DNA of 28,897 nucleotides, from positions 1 through 28,897 of IMG/VR virus record IMGVR_UViG_3300013103_000043. The stretch is one strand, 5' to 3'. Each line of letters starts with the position of its first letter. Position 1 is the first letter of the stretch. This document shows, in pieces, positions 2,305-10,795 of the stretch. Position numbers and translations under genes: made by a program. This stretch comes from a virus. The notes under the pieces were generated by a model. That model searched no databases and was not told where the DNA came from. It worked only from the letters and a program-made list of their open reading frames with translations.

Positions 2305-3930
2305 ATGACAACAAAACCAAAGAAACTTCAATCTTATGAGATATTGAAGTTCTCATCTACATTTCTAAAGAGGAATGAATGGGTTGTAAATATCAGCCTA
2401 AACAGTGGGAGGTTAAATCGGCAGGTCGTGAGTTTGGCGGAAAACGAATTCTTTTATCAATTGAGTAGATTGAAAGAGTCTGTGGTAAATTGGGATATTG
2501 TTGATGCCTTGATTTTAGAAAAACGGGAGTTGACAAAAAAGAAAAATTCCAATGTAAATCGAAACAGAATCAGAAAGTTAGATTGTGAATTAGATTCCAT
2601 AATATTTATCCCCGAAATAGTATCTATAGAATTTGATAGCAAGTCGCACTATAAGACTCTGCAAAATAGAAAGTTGGTAGTAAATGACAAGGAATTTGTA
2701 AGATTTTTAGCTGGTGCAGGAAATATACGAAGTTCAACCGTATTCTTTATTGAGAAGTCTTACTTTACCCCACTAACAGATGTTTTGGATAATGGTCGAG
2801 ATAAGAACACAAAGCTGAATCCTGCGAAATTAAATGCTTATTTCGGATTGTACGCGTCTAGCGGATTTAGAGTGGCTTACCCAAGATTTGCTGTAATTCC
2901 AGACTATGAATTTGAAAAAATAGCAACTGTAGATTTTATAGACGATGATAATGACATAAAAGAAATTGAGAGAACCTTGACCTTGAATGCTTTTGATGGG
3001 CAGGGATTAATATCTCCAAAATTTGCCAAAATATGGGCAGATGGATTAGGATTAGAATACACCCCGTCTAACTTTATAATTCGGTCATCTTTTATAAAGG
3101 GCTTAGTTGTAGTTTTTGACTATAAGAAATTTGCGAAAAGTATCGGTGTGGAAGTTGGAGTTGACTTATGGGGAAATAGATTTCCAATAGATGACACGGA
3201 TATTGTTTTATCTGAATCTCAATTTAAATTATGGGACTCATATCTATCATTGGACGACTATATTTATAATAGTGAGAAAAATGACATACCGTTTAGGGTT
3301 ACTCGATATTCACCTAAACAATTAAATCGAAGTAGTTCAACAAATTATATGTTTTTGCAAGTATTAGATTTGGCGGAAAAAGACATTAAATCCTTGTCAG
3401 AACCAACCTTGGATTTTTTTAGAGATGTCAGAAATTTGGATGAACGTAAAACATCTTTGTTTTTATCTGGAAGCAGTTTTTTTGATGATGATTTTGGGGC
3501 GGAAAAATTTTGTGATTTAGGTATTGTGTCAAAGTCCATCCTAGTATATCCCAAATTGCTTGGAGAGAGATATATATCTTCCAGAATTTCAAATGTTATA
3601 AAGAAAAAAGAACAGATGGCAAAATTAGGAAAATTAATTGTAGAGGGGCAATATCAAATAATGGTCTCTGACCCTTACGGACAAGCCCAATGGCTATGCG
3701 GAATGTCCCCAAGAGGATTGTTGAAAGAAGGAGAACATTATTCTAAATGGTGGTATGATAAAGGAGAGAGAGTTCTTGCTGCTGCCAGAAGCCCTCTAAC
3801 TCATAATAGCGAAATGGTTAAATCTAAAATAACAGAAACAAGACAAATGGTTGAATGGTATAAATATTTAGGAAATGTATATATAATGCCTATAAATTCA
3901 TTAGATACATTATACATGGCAGATTCGGAT
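2305..3930 (+). CDS. yonO-like: Single-subunit RNA polymerase, QDE-1/YonO type: exon 1
   Basis: Exon 1 encodes residues 1-542 of a polymerase of about 895 aa, joined to an exon at 5061-6122. The start ATG follows TAAGGAG. Near the end are GMSPRGLLKEG and AARSPLTHNSEM (residues 492-504), the latter matching the Arg-x-Pro segment before the metal-binding loop of two-barrel cellular RdRPs and their phage relatives. The exon ends MADSD, and the next bases are an in-frame TAA. Read alone it would lack the catalytic Asp triad. Joined across the intron it reads D542-Y-D-G-D546, the DxDGD loop that binds the catalytic magnesium. YonO of SPbeta is a DNA-dependent RNA polymerase of this class reported to transcribe late genes; the same role is inferred here. 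The N-terminal half has no motif I recognise. Confidence 0.85.
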
Positions 3931-5060
3931 TAAAACGTAGTCCCTTTAGACCGCGAGGTCTATCGAAGAAGGTGGTGAAGGGCAAAATGCCCGTGTATCT
4001 CAAACCAAGTATTTGGGAATCATAGGAAATGATGATTTGTTGAGATGCTAACGAGGAAAGCTAAAGAGAATTTTTAATTATAAAATGATTAAAAAAGAAG
4101 AAAGAAGATATTATGTTTATGAATGGTTCAATGTTGACAGCGGCGAAGTTTTTTATGTCGGCAAAGGAACTCGGTTGAGGTATAGACAATTAGGAAATAG
4201 AAATAAGTTTTTTTTAAGATACCACAACAAATATAGTTGTGATGTGCGAATTATCTCTAATAAAATGGGCAATGATGAAGCTCTGATTCTGGAACATGAA
4301 GTAATCATGGAATATAGAAAAACAGGGCAATGTCAAACAAACATTACCGATGGAGGTGAAAATCCCCCAGTAATGAGTGGCGAGAAAAATGGTATGTTTG
4401 GAAAACACCATAGTCAAGACACGAGAGATAAGATTAGTCGCATCCATACATTATCTGGTCGATTTAAGGGAGCTGGCAATAGTCAATTTGGTGTTTCTCC
4501 GAAAGACAGAATGGATGAAGAAACCTATAAAACATGGAGAGCTAAACAAAAAGCGAGAAAGTTTGGAAAAACAAACCCAAATTATGGGAATAAAAAACTT
4601 TCAATGTTCTATAGGGACAATCCAGATGTGTCAAAAGAAAAGAATAGTAGGGCAGGCATAAAAAATGGAAGAGCCATCCCAGTAGCAATGTCAAATGATA
4701 ACGGATTTTATAAGGAGTTTGATTACATGATTTTATGTGCAGAATATCTTGTAGAAAAAAAGATAATAGAAACAAGAGCAAAGAATCTTTCAGGCATTGC
4801 TACCAGAATTTCTTCAGCCGCGAAGAATGGTAGCGAATATGCAAACCATGATTTTAATTTCATAAACAAATAACTAAAATTCTCAATGCCAATCTCGTGC
4901 CAAGGCTTGGCTATAAAATGCCTCGCAAGGTCTAGAGACTATTCCGCAAGGAAGTAGGAGAGATGTGAAATACCTCTCTCCGAAGTGCCACCAATCTGTT
5001 TTTTTACAGATTATGAAATAGTCCAACTACAATTTTAAAGGTGAAAGCCGTTTGTAGTAG
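3931..5060 (+). ncRNA. Group I intron interrupting the polymerase DxDGD motif
   Basis: This 1130-nt self-splicing intron carries a homing endonuclease gene. Core signals: P2-like AGACC-GCGA-GGTCT (3948-3961, GNRA loop); ACGAG (4051) pairing with CTCGT (4894); GAGAATTTT (4066-4074) pairing with AAAATTCTC (4876-4884) around the ORF; P7 GACTAT (4937-4942) with ATAGTC (5018-5023) in typical R and S box contexts; a P8-like GGAGAG/CTCTCC stem between them; P9 ACTAC (5026-5030) with GTAGT (5054-5058). Splice sites: exon GGAU (3927-3930) pairs with guide GUCC (3940-3943), giving the standard U-G at the 5' site. The intron ends in G5060, and CGUA (3936-3939) pairs with UACG at the exon 2 start (5061-5064) as P10. 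Splicing restores the frame. Confidence 0.93.
4085..4873 (+). CDS. Intron-encoded GIY-YIG homing endonuclease with NUMOD3 repeats
   Basis: A 262-aa protein encoded inside the group I intron. Residues 9-28 form the GIY-YIG motif as YYVYEW then VFYVGKG. Glu70/Glu72 lie in the helix after it, and NITDGGENPP (residues 86-95) is the conserved segment closing this nuclease domain. Next come NUMOD3-type DNA-binding repeats: GMFGKHHSQDTRDKIS (103-118), NSQFG (132-136) and NPNYGNK (164-170). A C-terminal NUMOD1-like helical domain follows (about 193-262). The enzyme is expected to cut intronless copies of the polymerase gene at the codons of the active-site loop and so spread the intron. The start has no clear Shine-Dalgarno and lies just behind a stem arm of the intron core, so translation may depend on RNA folding. 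It has the same strand as its host gene. Confidence 0.9.
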   Translation: MIKKEERRYYVYEWFNVDSGEVFYVGKGTRLRYRQLGNRNKFFLRYHNKYSCDVRIISNKMGNDEALILEHEVIMEYRKTGQCQTNITDGGENPPVMSGEKNGMFGKHHSQDTRDKISRIHTLSGRFKGAGNSQFGVSPKDRMDEETYKTWRAKQKARKFGKTNPNYGNKKLSMFYRDNPDVSKEKNSRAGIKNGRAIPVAMSNDNGFYKEFDYMILCAEYLVEKKIIETRAKNLSGIATRISSAAKNGSEYANHDFNFINK

Positions 5061-6122
5061 TACGATGGTGATATTTGTCTATTGACAAATCAAAAAGAAC
5101 TAATAAATAGAAGAATAAGTGGAAACCCTATTAGCTATAATGGCGGAAAAGCAAAAAAAGAAATTGTCACAAAAGAATTGATAGCTAACGCGGATTATAA
5201 TGGGCTTGGGACTAGGATAGGTTTTATTACGAATATCTCTAGCACGTTACACTCCCTTTTGTATAGATTTCCAAAAAATTCAGATGAAAGAATTGAGATA
5301 GATAAGAGGTTGAAGATTTGTAGAATGTTGCAGGGGGTAGAGATTGATGGGGCTAAACTGGGGGGAGTAAAGAAGAAAGTTCCACCATCTTGGACAAAGT
5401 ATTCAAAAGAGTTATCGAACGTAGAAAAAAATATATTAGCAGACAAAAGACCATTGTTTATGCGACATCTATATCCGCAGTATGATAAAAAATATAAGAA
5501 CCACATATATAATTATAACAATCATTGTTTTTCCCATTGGGGAATGTCTTTCAATTCTTTGGAACTGAAAGAAAAGAAAACTAAAAAACAGAAAAAAACA
5601 ATTGAGAATTATTATAGGTATTCGGATTTTATCTTTACTCCATCCCCTATGAATGTTTTGTCTATACATATTGAAAATGAGTTGGATAGAATTTATGATA
5701 ATACAAAAAAGAAAAAAATAGATTTTGATTATAAACAGCTCCTTTCCAATTTTCAATATATTCCAGATGAAGACAAAATAGTTGAAATGAAAAAACTTGT
5801 TGCGAAATTTCTATCGGCAAAAAAGGCTTGGAGAAGGACTATAAACAAGAGTTTGAAAAAAGATATTTATTACATTCTTTCTCAGGCAAAAAAAGATGCC
5901 CTTCAGGTAACAAGTGATGGGGAAGAATTGGGAAATCTTATTGTTTGGTTGATGAAGGATTCTTCTCGATATGATTCTTTTGGATGGACGGTTCTTGGCG
6001 ACTTTATTGTAGAAAATCTCTTGCTGAGACATGGGAGAACAGTCGATATTTTAGTTAAGGATTTTTATGGAGAAGAAGAATTTTTGTTTGAAACTTATTC
6101 TAACAAAAAAATAACTCTGTAG
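5061..6122 (+). CDS. yonO-like: Single-subunit RNA polymerase, QDE-1/YonO type: exon 2
   Basis: Exon 2 opens TAC GAT GGT GAT, completing the catalytic loop as D-Y-D-G-D with the last Asp of exon 1. It adds 353 residues, for about 895 in total, close to the length I recall for SPbeta YonO. About 90 residues on is LQGVEIDGAKLGG (residues 632-644 of the joined protein). This corresponds to the conserved AVD-x-PKTG-like segment of eukaryotic RdRPs and supports the family call independently of the Asp motif. A later TTG within exon 2 (5082) could be mistaken for the gene start, but no ribosome site precedes it and it lacks the metal-binding residues. The rest is Lys-rich, as expected for a nucleic-acid enzyme. 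The stop is followed within a few bases by AGGAGG for the next gene. Confidence 0.87.
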   Translation, partial: YDGDICLLTNQKELINRRISGNPISYNGGKAKKEIVTKELIANADYNGLGTRIGFITNISSTLHSLLYRFPKNSDERIEIDKRLKICRMLQGVEIDGAKLGGVKKKVPPSWTKYSKELSNVEKNILADKRPLFMRHLYPQYDKKYKNHIYNYNNHCFSHWGMSFNSLELKEKKTKKQKKTIENYYRYSDFIFTPSPMNVLSIHIENELDRIYDNTKKKKIDFDYKQLLSNFQYIPDEDKIVEMKKLVAKFLSAKKAWRRTINKSLKKDIYYILSQAKKDALQVTSDGEELGNLIVWLMKDSSRYDSFGWTVLGDFIVENLLLRHGRTVDILVKDFYGEEEFLFETYSNKKITL

Positions 6123-6134
6123 GAGGCAAGTGTT

Positions 6135-6908
6135 TTGAAAAAAATTTATGACGAAACAGTTCTCTTGAATAGCGTTTTGAAAAATGGCTTTCTTACAGGA
6201 ACTCCAGATTTTCAAGAACTTTTAGTTCTTGCGAAAAATTTTAGAGGTAGGTATGGATATGGTTTCACAAATATATGTAAGGAACTGTCTAATTTTTGTA
6301 GTGGCGAAATAGATGGATATTTAGATGAATTTTATTTTGAAACATTTCGCTCCGTAGCGAGAATTTCCATAAAAACACCTGAACTCAGAACGCCAAGCTA
6401 CCCTATAGAATTTACAAGGACGGAACTAGATAAGATTAGAAGAATAAAAAATTTCAAATATCAAAAAGTAATATTTTCTGCGTTGTCTCTTGGTAAAGCA
6501 TTTGGAAATAAAAAAATAATCTCGTCAAATCCGAAAGACATTTCTTTTATCTTAAAAATTTCTCAGACAAGAATATCCAAAGTTGAATTTAGAGATAAGG
6601 TAACACCCATTGCAAAACAACATGGGATATTCGAGCATAGGTTTTCTAAAAACGGAAATGGATTTTATATTTCTATCTTAAAAGAAGAAGATGAATCTAT
6701 CCAAAGAGAGTTATTTTTTGATGATTTAACAAATGCTGGAGTTGAATATAAAAATTATATAGGGTGTGATTTGGGATGGTGCGAAAACTGTGAAACAGAA
6801 ATTTGTAAACAATCCAATAGGCATGGGATGTGTTCAAAGTGTGCATATGAAAGTGGAAAAGATAATAATCGCAAAAGAGTTTCTAAGCATAGAGATGGGT
6901 GGCAGTAG
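6135..6908 (+). CDS. Putative winged-helix-like, zinc-binding protein, TTG start
   Basis: A 257-aa protein starting at TTG, placed by AGGAGG at 6121-6126 with 8-nt spacing. No ATG fits as well. The first 100 residues show no known motif. Residues about 110-175 (KYQKVIFSALSLGKAF, then ISSNPKDISFILKI, then KVTPIAKQHGIFEHR) look like a helical, winged-helix-type DNA-binding unit. The C-terminus has a Cys cluster, CENC-(x)4-C-(x)5-HGMCSKC, able to bind at least one zinc, followed by a basic tail. It lies directly between the phage RNA polymerase and the HU-like protein. This suggests, by context only, a transcription factor or accessory subunit for that polymerase. The family is not recognised and the fold is a judgement by eye. 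Confidence 0.6.
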   Translation: MKKIYDETVLLNSVLKNGFLTGTPDFQELLVLAKNFRGRYGYGFTNICKELSNFCSGEIDGYLDEFYFETFRSVARISIKTPELRTPSYPIEFTRTELDKIRRIKNFKYQKVIFSALSLGKAFGNKKIISSNPKDISFILKISQTRISKVEFRDKVTPIAKQHGIFEHRFSKNGNGFYISILKEEDESIQRELFFDDLTNAGVEYKNYIGCDLGWCENCETEICKQSNRHGMCSKCAYESGKDNNRKRVSKHRDGWQ

Positions 6909-7449: not shown

Positions 7450-7524
7450 ATGGGATTAGCTCAGTCTGGTCAGAGTACTCGCTTTGGACGCGAGGAGTCG
7501 TTGATTCAAATTCAACATCCCATA
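7450..7524 (+). tRNA. tRNA-Pro (anticodon TGG)
   Basis: A complete cloverleaf can be drawn. The acceptor is ATGGGAT with ATCCCAT (7 bp) and discriminator A. The D stem is GCTC with GAGT around a loop with the TGG core. The anticodon stem is CTCGC/GCGAG with loop TTTGGAC, giving anticodon UGG. The variable loop is 5 nt. The T arm is GTTGA-TTCAAAT-TCAAC. CCA is not encoded. Position 37 is A, while bacterial proline tRNAs normally have G37. The gene sits alone between the HU-like gene and the virion genes and is followed by a terminator-like hairpin. Confidence 0.92.
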
Positions 7525-7539
7525 CTAATTATAAAAAAT

Positions 7540-8093: not shown

Positions 8094-9563
8094 ATGGTTT
8101 ATGTAGATATTGCAAATAGTGAAACAGGTCTATCTGCTAGGGGAAAGATAAATGAGATAGGTTCAGATGTAGAGAAATCAGTAAGACAGGTATCGGATAT
8201 TGCAAATGTTTCTAGTGAATTGGAATACTGGGGTAATGGAACAAGTGTTTTAGATTTATCGGATAAAAAATATTATAAATGGAGTGGTAGCGCATGGGAA
8301 AGAGACTACAGGGCTGCTACAACTATTGATAGTGGGGTTGGGGCTACTGAATTTGTATGGGATGATTTGAGAATTAGTCCAACCACTCTTCCATCTATCG
8401 GCGCAAGAAGTCCAGAACACAAAGTTGTGGCTAATGATGGCACAAGCTCATCCACGAGCAATGCAATTGTTTTAGACGGAAATAACGACTATACTACAGT
8501 TGGTGATTATCCAGCGTTAGATGTAACAGAGATGACTATTGAAGGATGGTACAAACCAGTTAGTTCTGGTAGTTATGAGTTACTCGACAGGGATAGCAAT
8601 TTTGAATTCTATATGTCTGGTGGACAGTTACAATTTACATTGAAAGGTGTTAATAATGATAGTCAATCCAGTGATAATGGGGTAATTCTTGCTGGTGGGT
8701 ATCAGCATTATGCTGTAGTTATTTCTGATGAAGGTGCAAGACGAAGGGCAACTTTTTATGTAGATGGGGTCGAGAAAGGTAGCGGCAGATTGAATGCCAA
8801 CTTTACTGGTGCGTCTGATGGATTGAGATTTGGTCAATACACTTCGGGATGGAATTATCAAGGTTCTATGGATAATTGCATTATATACAATGTCCCTCTT
8901 ACGTTATCTCAAATACAAGAAAGATATAACGGTGGAGATGGAAGTATTACATTACCAACTGGAGTTACAGAAGCTACAGATGTTGTTGCCAGATTTGAGT
9001 ATGATGAAGGAACTGGCACGGTTGTAGATAATAATTGTACTCTGGGTAGTGGGAGTGATATGATGTTATTTAACTCTATTGGATGGGAAGCTGGACATGT
9101 TGACAGTGGAAATCCAACGGGTTCTTTTGGTGTTGTGGCATTGAGTTTTAATGCAGATACGACTAACGAAATATTTTTCTCTGCTCAAATGCCTCACACC
9201 TATGCAGAAGGGACATCTATATTTCCTCATATCCATTGGATGAATCCATCTCCTGGCAGCGGAAATATTGTCTTTGGGTTAGAGTATTTGTGGGTTAATA
9301 AAGAGGAAGCTATTGCAGGTGGAAATACGACAGTAGTTAAAAAGGTTATTGCTGCAGGAACACAGGGAGTACATAATATCAATACAATCGCTGAGTTGGA
9401 TGGAACAGGGAAGAAAATAAGTTCTATCCTAGAATGCCGTCTATTCAGAGATGGGTCTAATAGTTCTGATACTTTGGCTAGTGAGATGTTTTTGTCAGAA
9501 TTTGATTTCCATTTTAAAATAGATTCGTTAGGTAGTTATCAAGAATATATAAAGAGATTATAG
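8094..9563 (+). CDS. Virion protein with LamG/concanavalin-like domain
   Basis: A 489-aa protein in three parts. Residues 1-110 contain a short helical stretch and an adhesin-like YYKWSGSAWER segment. Residues about 124-280 form a LamG (concanavalin A-like) jelly roll: NAIVLDGNNDYTTVG, MTIEGWYKP, HYAVVISDEG, ATFYVDGVEKGSG and the closing SMDNCIIYNVPLTLSQI, all typical of LamG domains in phage and surface proteins. Residues 310-489 form another beta-rich domain (PHIHWMNPSPGSGNIVFGLE) ending in a SEFDFHFKID strand, like phage fibre or head-fibre C-termini. LamG domains bind sugars or protein surfaces, so a role in adsorption or as a capsid fibre is likely. Being upstream of the terminase rather than at the tail end favours a head-associated fibre. 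Strong AAGGAGG start. Confidence 0.75.
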   Translation: MVYVDIANSETGLSARGKINEIGSDVEKSVRQVSDIANVSSELEYWGNGTSVLDLSDKKYYKWSGSAWERDYRAATTIDSGVGATEFVWDDLRISPTTLPSIGARSPEHKVVANDGTSSSTSNAIVLDGNNDYTTVGDYPALDVTEMTIEGWYKPVSSGSYELLDRDSNFEFYMSGGQLQFTLKGVNNDSQSSDNGVILAGGYQHYAVVISDEGARRRATFYVDGVEKGSGRLNANFTGASDGLRFGQYTSGWNYQGSMDNCIIYNVPLTLSQIQERYNGGDGSITLPTGVTEATDVVARFEYDEGTGTVVDNNCTLGSGSDMMLFNSIGWEAGHVDSGNPTGSFGVVALSFNADTTNEIFFSAQMPHTYAEGTSIFPHIHWMNPSPGSGNIVFGLEYLWVNKEEAIAGGNTTVVKKVIAAGTQGVHNINTIAELDGTGKKISSILECRLFRDGSNSSDTLASEMFLSEFDFHFKIDSLGSYQEYIKRL

Positions 9564-9713: not shown

Positions 9714-9736
9714 GTAATCTATGAGAGGATTTGATT

Positions 9737-10795
9737 ATGAGTAGAAAATTAGAACAGTCTGTAGTTAATGATTATTTTAGTGAGTTTGGATATATTGTAA
9801 AATCAACATACATGGGTTATGCAAAACCTTTAATTGTACAATGTCCTATTGGGCATGAATATAGCATTAGCTTGGATGTGTTTAAGCGGGGTTCTCGATG
9901 TCAATTGTGCGAATGGGAATCACGAAAGAAAAATCCAGATGAGATTCATTCTTTTTTAAAAAAGAAGGGTTATCGGTGGGTGTCTGGAGAATACATTAAT
10001 GCACATCAGAAAATAACAGTGGAATGTGACAAAGCCCATTCGTTTGATATTCCATGGGCTGCATTGTCTCAAGGAGCGGGATGCCCCAAATGTGCAAAAG
10101 ATATGGCATCTCTTCGCTACAGAAAAGATTTTAACTTAGTATTGTCAGACATAAAATCAAAAGGTATTGAATATGTTTCTGGCGAGTATATAAACGGAAC
10201 ATCTAAAATGACTTTATTTTGTCCTGCACATGGAAAGTTTCAGAGGAGTTATGACAGCGTTATGTCATCAAAATATCCTTGTCCAAAATGTGCAAAGGTG
10301 GGAGCAGCAGAGTTTCATAGAAAAGATTTGGACGAGATAATAAAAAATATTGAATCATACAATTTTAAATATATCTCAGGAAAGTACAAGAATAATATGA
10401 GCAAATTAAAAGTTGAGTGTGATAAGGGGCATATTTTTTCAATTAGTTGGGCGAATTTTAGTAAGGGGAAGAGATGCCCCAGCTGTGCTGTGTATGGATT
10501 TAATACGGCTAAAAAGGGAATTTTGTATTATCTAAGGGTAGAATATAGAAATAAAACATACTATAAGATAGGAATAACAAATCGCTCTATTAACGACAGA
10601 TTTAATAATTCCGATTTAGAAAAAATAACAATTTTAAAAACATGGAAACATAAAAGGGGTTTCACAAGTTATAAAAAAGAACAGGCTATATTAAAAAAAT
10701 ATTCAGAATATAGATATAGAGGTAAGACTAAGGTATTGCAGTCTGGTGGAAATACAGAACTTTTTACTAAAGATGTACTGGGACTTGATTTGTAA
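9737..10795 (+). CDS. Free-standing GIY-YIG-like nuclease with four zinc ribbons
   Basis: A 352-aa protein. The ATG at 9737 is chosen over an upstream TTG because GAGAGGA lies 7 nt before it. Four repeats of about 62 residues each carry a Cys-His...Cys-x2-Cys zinc site: C36/H40/C55/C58, C97/H101/C116/C119, C162/H165/C182/C185 and C228/H232/C247/C250, the last three preceded by Y-x-S-G-(E/K)-Y-(I/K)-N. Residues 261-345 look like a GIY-YIG/T5orf172-type nuclease: GILYYLRVEY, YYKIGITNRS then DRF, and Glu341 in GNTELF. The family is common as free-standing homing-type endonucleases in phage genomes. The zinc ribbons would provide DNA recognition. It sits between a virion gene and the packaging genes like an inserted mobile gene, not inside an intron. 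Confidence 0.75.
   Translation: MSRKLEQSVVNDYFSEFGYIVKSTYMGYAKPLIVQCPIGHEYSISLDVFKRGSRCQLCEWESRKKNPDEIHSFLKKKGYRWVSGEYINAHQKITVECDKAHSFDIPWAALSQGAGCPKCAKDMASLRYRKDFNLVLSDIKSKGIEYVSGEYINGTSKMTLFCPAHGKFQRSYDSVMSSKYPCPKCAKVGAAEFHRKDLDEIIKNIESYNFKYISGKYKNNMSKLKVECDKGHIFSISWANFSKGKRCPSCAVYGFNTAKKGILYYLRVEYRNKTYYKIGITNRSINDRFNNSDLEKITILKTWKHKRGFTSYKKEQAILKKYSEYRYRGKTKVLQSGGNTELFTKDVLGLDL

Follow-up and report, generated by a model that had tools for sequence, protein, structure and literature searches.

A predicted SPO1-type group I intron within the catalytic motif of a YonO-like phage RNA polymerase gene

The intron of gene 31 in phage SPO1 is of the same subtype as the element described here and likewise encodes a homing endonuclease inside a phage polymerase gene. 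Its nuclease, I-HmuI, belongs to the HNH family. The two elements differ in their host gene, which codes for a DNA polymerase in SPO1, in their insertion site, and in their nuclease family. In phage PhiPA3, gp210 harbors a putative group I intron with an endonuclease directly after two conserved aspartates of a phage RNA polymerase (PMC11620839). Unlike in the present case, the host protein is the beta subunit of a multi-subunit jumbo-phage RNA polymerase, the site is not the DxDGD triad, and the nuclease, which was shown to inhibit a competing phage, is an HNH enzyme (PMC11620839). For the RNAP B′ of zeta crAss-like phages, stops and frameshifts have been reported within the same catalytic motif (DxDxD), but this is a much larger and different polymerase, and the available part of the report assigns no splice sites or introns to the motif (PMC7886860). 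The introns of the Bastillevirinae are also group I elements with endonucleases in phage genes and fall into heterogeneous IA-type clades; a single-chain RNA polymerase is not among the hosts named in the available part of their description (PMC11878797).

The window analyzed here is the whole 28,897-nt stretch of IMG/VR record IMGVR_UViG_3300013103_000043, and the exons and the intron with its parts lie on its plus strand. A single-chain RNA polymerase gene is split into a 542-aa ORF (2305–3933) and an open frame at 5061–6122. Exon 1 (2305–3930, 542 aa) closes on TCG GAT (last codon 3928–3930), whose final residue is the first Asp of DYDGD, and is followed by an in-frame TAA. Exon 2 (5061–6122, 353 aa and a stop) opens with TAC GAT GGT GAT (Y-D-G-D), matches phrog_35857 (E=1.7e-15), and is colinear with the polymerases of BUCT082 and PMBT24 and with YonO. 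The 3930/5061 join yields a single 895-aa frame containing MADSDYDGDICLLTN, in which DYDGD is restored; the predicted ligated exon sequence is GAUUACGAUGGU. While exon 1 alone matches the Pfam RdRP family PF05183 with E=1.4e-10, the joined protein reaches E=1.1e-15 (57.8 bits, cut-off 23.8) in one domain that spans the junction (residues 114–643). It can be aligned over its full length with the uninterrupted polymerases of Bacillus phage BUCT082, Enterocloster phage PMBT24, SPbeta (YonO), Perkons, and TR-TP1. When neighboring U^/G^ junctions with an uninterrupted frame are compared, DYDGD arises from 3930/5061 and 3924/5061 only, and the latter was rejected for the loss of two codons that homologues retain.

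The site also occurs empty. On two IMG/VR contigs, L126 and L127, the homologous gene is intact and shares ~52% identity with exon 1. In L126, the closest relative found, the gene is uninterrupted: window 3499–3930 corresponds to L126 5668–6099 and window 5061–5924 to L126 6100–6963. The two L126 segments adjoin, and this is therefore an intron-free allele with zero bases between the positions equivalent to 3930 and 5061. The exon ends and the restored DYDGD had been proposed in the first-pass annotation, and both the joined frame and this empty site bear them out to the base. The annotation had further placed the insertion in the DYDGD codons; the motif is indeed split, but between its first (Asp) and second codon, so that no codon is interrupted. 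The intron splits the gene between the codons for the metal-binding active-site aspartates of the polymerase.

The host gene product is predicted to be a QDE-1/YonO-type RNA polymerase, a family in which DNA-dependent RNA synthesis and late-gene specificity are known for YonO alone; the end-to-end alignment with YonO and the PF05183 match agree with the earlier assignment to this family. The fold was modeled on intact L126 as a stand-in for the window protein (mean pLDDT 86.3). The model matches maize RDR2 (5.9e-19), QDE-1 (2.8e-17), and phage P74 gp62 (2.6e-8), as well as the P32 gp64 RNA polymerase and the polymerase of crAss-like phi14:2. Across 13 relatives, the DxDGD aspartates (L126 residues 543, 545, and 547) and the ID..K motif (638, 639, and 642) are invariant. 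In a clade comprising L001 (BUCT082), L139, L140, L148, L190, and L188, D-F-D-Y-D replaces D-x-D-G-D, which exchanges the catalytic-loop Gly for Tyr. Directly 3′ of the polymerase gene lies a gene with C-terminal CxxC pairs (6135–6908) that may encode a polymerase partner; L001, L002, L003, L004, L007, and L126 have a similarly sized gene at the same place after the polymerase. A tRNA-Pro (TGG) is found at 7450–7525 between a DNA-binding-protein-like gene and the structural module.

The interrupting segment (3931–5060, 1130 nt) takes on the predicted architecture of a SPO1-type group I intron with an extra P3-P4 domain. P1 (3927–3943) pairs GGAU 3927–3930 with GUCC 3940–3943 and sets a U3930-G3940 wobble at the 5′ splice site. 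The internal guide is extended from P1 and shared with P10 (CGUA 3936–3939/UACG 5061–5064). The P2 hairpin (3947–3962, UAGACC-GCGA-GGUCUA) was read from the sequence and is present in the predicted fold. The 5′ strand of P3 (GGUGGU, 3971–3976) finds its partner in GCCACC 4987–4992, with covariation across the intron family. The extra domain (3977–4050) consists of a hairpin (3980–3983/3989–3992) and a helix (3995–4003/4040–4048) with an inner stem (4018–4023/4032–4037). The 5′ strand of P4 (ACGAGG, 4051–4056) pairs with UCUCGU 4893–4898, and the 9-bp P5 stem (4066–4884; 4066–4074/4876–4884) holds the entire endonuclease ORF in its loop. In the P6/P6a region (4899–4931), P6 (GCC 4899–4901/GGU 4929–4931) is assigned from the group I consensus order. 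P7 (4937–5023; GACUA 4937–4941/UAGUC 5019–5023) encloses P7.1 (4942–4953), P7.2 (4957–4981), the 3′ strand of P3, and P8 (4993–5012). The element ends with P9 (5026–5032/5052–5058) and the terminal omega G5060 (5026–5060). The U-G pair of P1, the guide shared with P10, and the terminal G are therefore all found at the splice sites, and the core contains the P3/P7 pseudoknot, P4-P6 with P6 as assigned, and P8. The wobble, final G, P10 pairing, and P7 and P9 stems reported in the first reading are all present. A direct junction of P3 and P4 did not fit, and the relatives revealed the extra domain between the two helices.

Neither the window nor its interrupted relatives yield a group I intron with Rfam at the gathering score. 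RF00028 scores 16.9 bits on the window against a cut-off of 50, which is a curated cut-off and not a defining structure; several Rfam matches to the T4, Twort, SPO1, and SPbeta sequence records likewise stay below it. An absent core is not the reason for the weak score, which stems from the extra P3-P4 domain and the 0.8-kb ORF. An ORF-less relative, L060, matches the whole Rfam group I core end to end (E=2.5e-8, 38.3 bits), also below the cut-off of 50. With the motif GGAATNNTAGGAAATGANNATT, which the window intron shares with the introns of two related phages, 36 IMG/VR contig stretches were retrieved, of which ~30 are real introns. Two covariance models were built with the window excluded: R1, from 27 segments of other introns, covers the P3-P4 domain, and R2 rests on 10 other introns, represented by their 3′ halves. 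R1 gives a single match in the window at 3966–4062 (E=3.5e-18, 72.6 bits), R2 a single match at 4931–5026 (E=2.8e-16). A covariance search had been named as a check of the core; it failed with Rfam alone, and the two window-free models placed both core halves. Compensatory changes occur in 14 of the 20 pairs of the R1 domain among the 27 other introns. In P3, which links the two core halves and for which the family shows 22 distinct helices, 175 of 186 positions are paired, whereas 2000 shuffles average 123 and reach at most 142; the count is conservative because the strands were chosen by pattern and a few wrong picks were retained.

R1 also matches SPO1 (E=8.5e-22, 87.8 bits) within gene 31, the DNA polymerase gene annotated as containing an intron, while in T4, Twort, and SPbeta the domain gives no match at E<=0.1. 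Since the known SPO1 intron has the same domain, the extra P3-P4 domain is ruled out as the sign of a new intron class, and the window intron is therefore of the SPO1 type. The same type is found in CB473P3 (OP172757.1, 58878–58970), beside an I-HmuI-like endonuclease, and in Perkons (MT325768.1, 95827–95921); both host genes are annotated as hypothetical. A blastn search with the 3′ part of the intron returned short matches to the conserved core only.

The P5 loop houses a homing endonuclease gene (4085–4873) whose 262-aa product is a putative GIY-YIG enzyme with NUMOD3. NUMOD3 scores above its cut-off (26.9 bits), the GIY-YIG domain stays below the Pfam cut-off (14.9 against 22.6 bits) with the motif YVY..YVG present, and a PHROG homing endonuclease is matched with E=1.2e-8. 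The intron is probably mobile. Most likely, the endonuclease would cut intron-free alleles at the same motif, whereupon the intron would be copied in. Catalytic codons would be favored because their sequence is fixed and imprecise loss would be lethal, and conserved catalytic codons are the place where theory expects such elements (Swithers 2009, PMC2814812). A second mobile nuclease of the same phage is encoded at 9731–10795 between structural and packaging genes; this endonuclease is free-standing and combines CapR repeats with a T5orf172 (GIY-YIG-like) domain.

The distribution of such introns was surveyed in polymerase genes. No relatives turned up when viral and genome contigs were queried with a single protein, and an eight-row alignment was too diverse as a query, so that two closer alignments were used. 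These polymerase-alignment searches, in which the intron did not serve as query, yielded 160 loci. Among 188 loci in total, 48 were flagged as interrupted; 31 of the 48 fall within the 160, and 18 of these 31 are closely related SPbeta-type prophages. Loci L010–L045 were found through the intron and therefore show where the intron type lives, not its frequency. Junctions were placed by protein score and the U^/G^ rule (those of L014, L029, L032, L035, L188, and L201 were read by hand with the same rule) and clustered by flanking exon into 26 clusters, some of which are two introns of one gene. The junction of L204 was left unplaced, and L158 was excluded from the counts for a one-base disruption of its motif: it has a same-site intron (L158:1353–1735) and an exon 2 that reads TATGACCGGAGAT, that is, DYDGD plus one extra base, from either an assembly error or a broken gene.

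The window position, D^xDGD, is occupied in at least 12 gene lineages (window, L025, L029, L032, L035, L130, L136, L146, L166, L188, L189, and L201). Four lineages are interrupted at DxD^GD or its equivalent DxD^YD (L002, L003, L183, and L188) and four at Q^FDxDGD (L014, L016, L022, and L028). The second invariant motif is split as (V/I)D^xxK in at least eight lineages (L003, L010, L014, L016, L022, L025, L188, and the SPbeta group), and L024/L034/L195 have an intron before its Asp. A further intron-like insertion of ~1190 nt with a 317-aa ORF precedes the DxDGD intron in L035/L038/L039, in the SQFK region. In the phage databases surveyed, the catalytic motif is a recurrent intron target in unrelated phages, and the two most conserved motifs of YonO/QDE-1-type polymerases are repeatedly interrupted in phages of Bacillus and Enterocloster and in many metagenomes. 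The introns at the same site may reflect descent or repeated homing.

In L188:7657–9746 (IMGVR_UViG_3300031555_005762), the catalytic motif holds a 6-nt exon, TTCGAT (Phe-Asp, 8765–8770), between two group I introns of 1108 and 337 nt; a third intron lies at RQID^KTK, and all three follow U^...G^. With the three introns removed, the 926-aa protein aligns over its length with L156 at 52% identity, and its joined motif GSDFDYDIVAST matches GSDFDYDIIATTS of BUCT082. The yonO gene of phi3T (KY030782.1) contains an unannotated 400-nt group I intron (51536–51935; L212:3004–3403) and is annotated as two hypothetical proteins, phi3T_60 and phi3T_59. After intron removal, it encodes 835 aa that are 93.4% identical to SPbeta YonO and gap-free; SPbeta yonO has no intron at this site. 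Similar introns occur in several SPbeta-like phages and prophages, with a length of 330–400 nt without an ORF or ~1290 nt with a 308-aa ORF. They share intron subtype and polymerase family with the window intron but are located at the second motif, ID^FAK, instead of DxDGD. A literature search, beyond whose reach lay two SPbeta-intron papers by Lazarevic, found no report of yonO/phi3T introns or of micro-exons.

In the proposed mechanism, the GGAU end of exon 1 would pair with the guide GUCC of the intron, and a guanosine would attack after U3930. The guide would then hold the UACG start of exon 2 via P10, and the freed exon 1 would attack after G5060. The joined mRNA would encode the complete polymerase, which would transcribe late genes as YonO does. 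Immediate in-frame stops past the 5′ splice site are usual in phage introns and bar ribosomes from the ribozyme core. In the window, exon 1 reaches its stop after a single Asp of the triad, and in the frame of exon 2 TAG TAG lies immediately upstream, with the first possible start, TTG 5082, downstream of the motif. No unspliced product can therefore hold the second and third Asp, and splicing is required for a complete triad. YonO transcribes the late genes of SPbeta, deletion of yonO silences them, and a change in the Asp triad abolishes its activity (PMC5467207), in keeping with the earlier claim that a dead fragment alone can be made before splicing.

Taken as a whole, a probably mobile group I intron that splices itself out of a polymerase gene at 3931–5060 is almost certainly the best explanation of the locus. 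An intein or a programmed frameshift, for which the split conserved motif would be equally typical in the case of inteins, is excluded for practical purposes by the stops: the first intron codon is an in-frame TAA, and many more occur in all frames apart from the endonuclease ORF. A group I core is present besides. All core helices and the reading frame of the endonuclease are intact and the rules for both splice sites are obeyed, which makes it highly improbable that the insertion is degenerate and does not splice, with the polymerase gene either dead or functioning through two halves translated separately. The phi3T annotators do list a split yonO as two genes, but phi3T keeps a similar arrangement around a joined yonO that is 93.4% identical and gap-free to SPbeta YonO. 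In the window, each exon is an open frame that runs colinear with intact relatives, and a separate exon 2 product starting at TTG 5082 would lack DGD.

Whether the intron also serves the phage is a separate matter. In one reading, splicing acts as a regulatory gate on late transcription, delaying or conditioning it; this would draw on the appearance of a complete polymerase only after splicing and on the position of its gene upstream of the terminase, portal, and structural genes. Nothing points to regulated splicing, however; the scattered occurrence and the variety of endonucleases suit a mobile parasite, and the close relatives L126 and SPbeta YonO have no intron, which is therefore dispensable for this life style. 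A beneficial gate is thus very unlikely, and a role of splicing in gating or timing late transcription is a guess. The endonuclease could by analogy be a weapon against intron-free competitors, as is the PhiPA3 nuclease against the PhiKZ RNA polymerase gene (PMC11620839). The two cases share logic and type of target gene, and intron-free relatives with a conserved site exist, yet the nuclease families differ (GIY-YIG here, HNH in PhiPA3) and ordinary homing accounts for the pattern without any benefit to the phage; the weapon function is accordingly rated unlikely. A broader scenario is quite unlikely: the motif would be a long-standing hot spot for SPO1-type introns, invaded at several positions separately, splicing would set the start of late transcription because no complete polymerase exists before it, and nuclease or delay may benefit the carriers.

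On its own, the intron of the window is an ordinary element of a known kind, and the pattern across phages is of moderate interest. It corrects the annotation of essential phage polymerases that are listed as separate hypothetical proteins. With its 6-nt exon flanked by a group I intron on either side, L188 provides a strict natural test of splice-site choice. A laboratory system is offered by Bacillus subtilis, where phi3T can be set against SPbeta, with the yonO intron present or absent, to address the long-standing question of whether introns of phages are neutral or alter the timing of infection.
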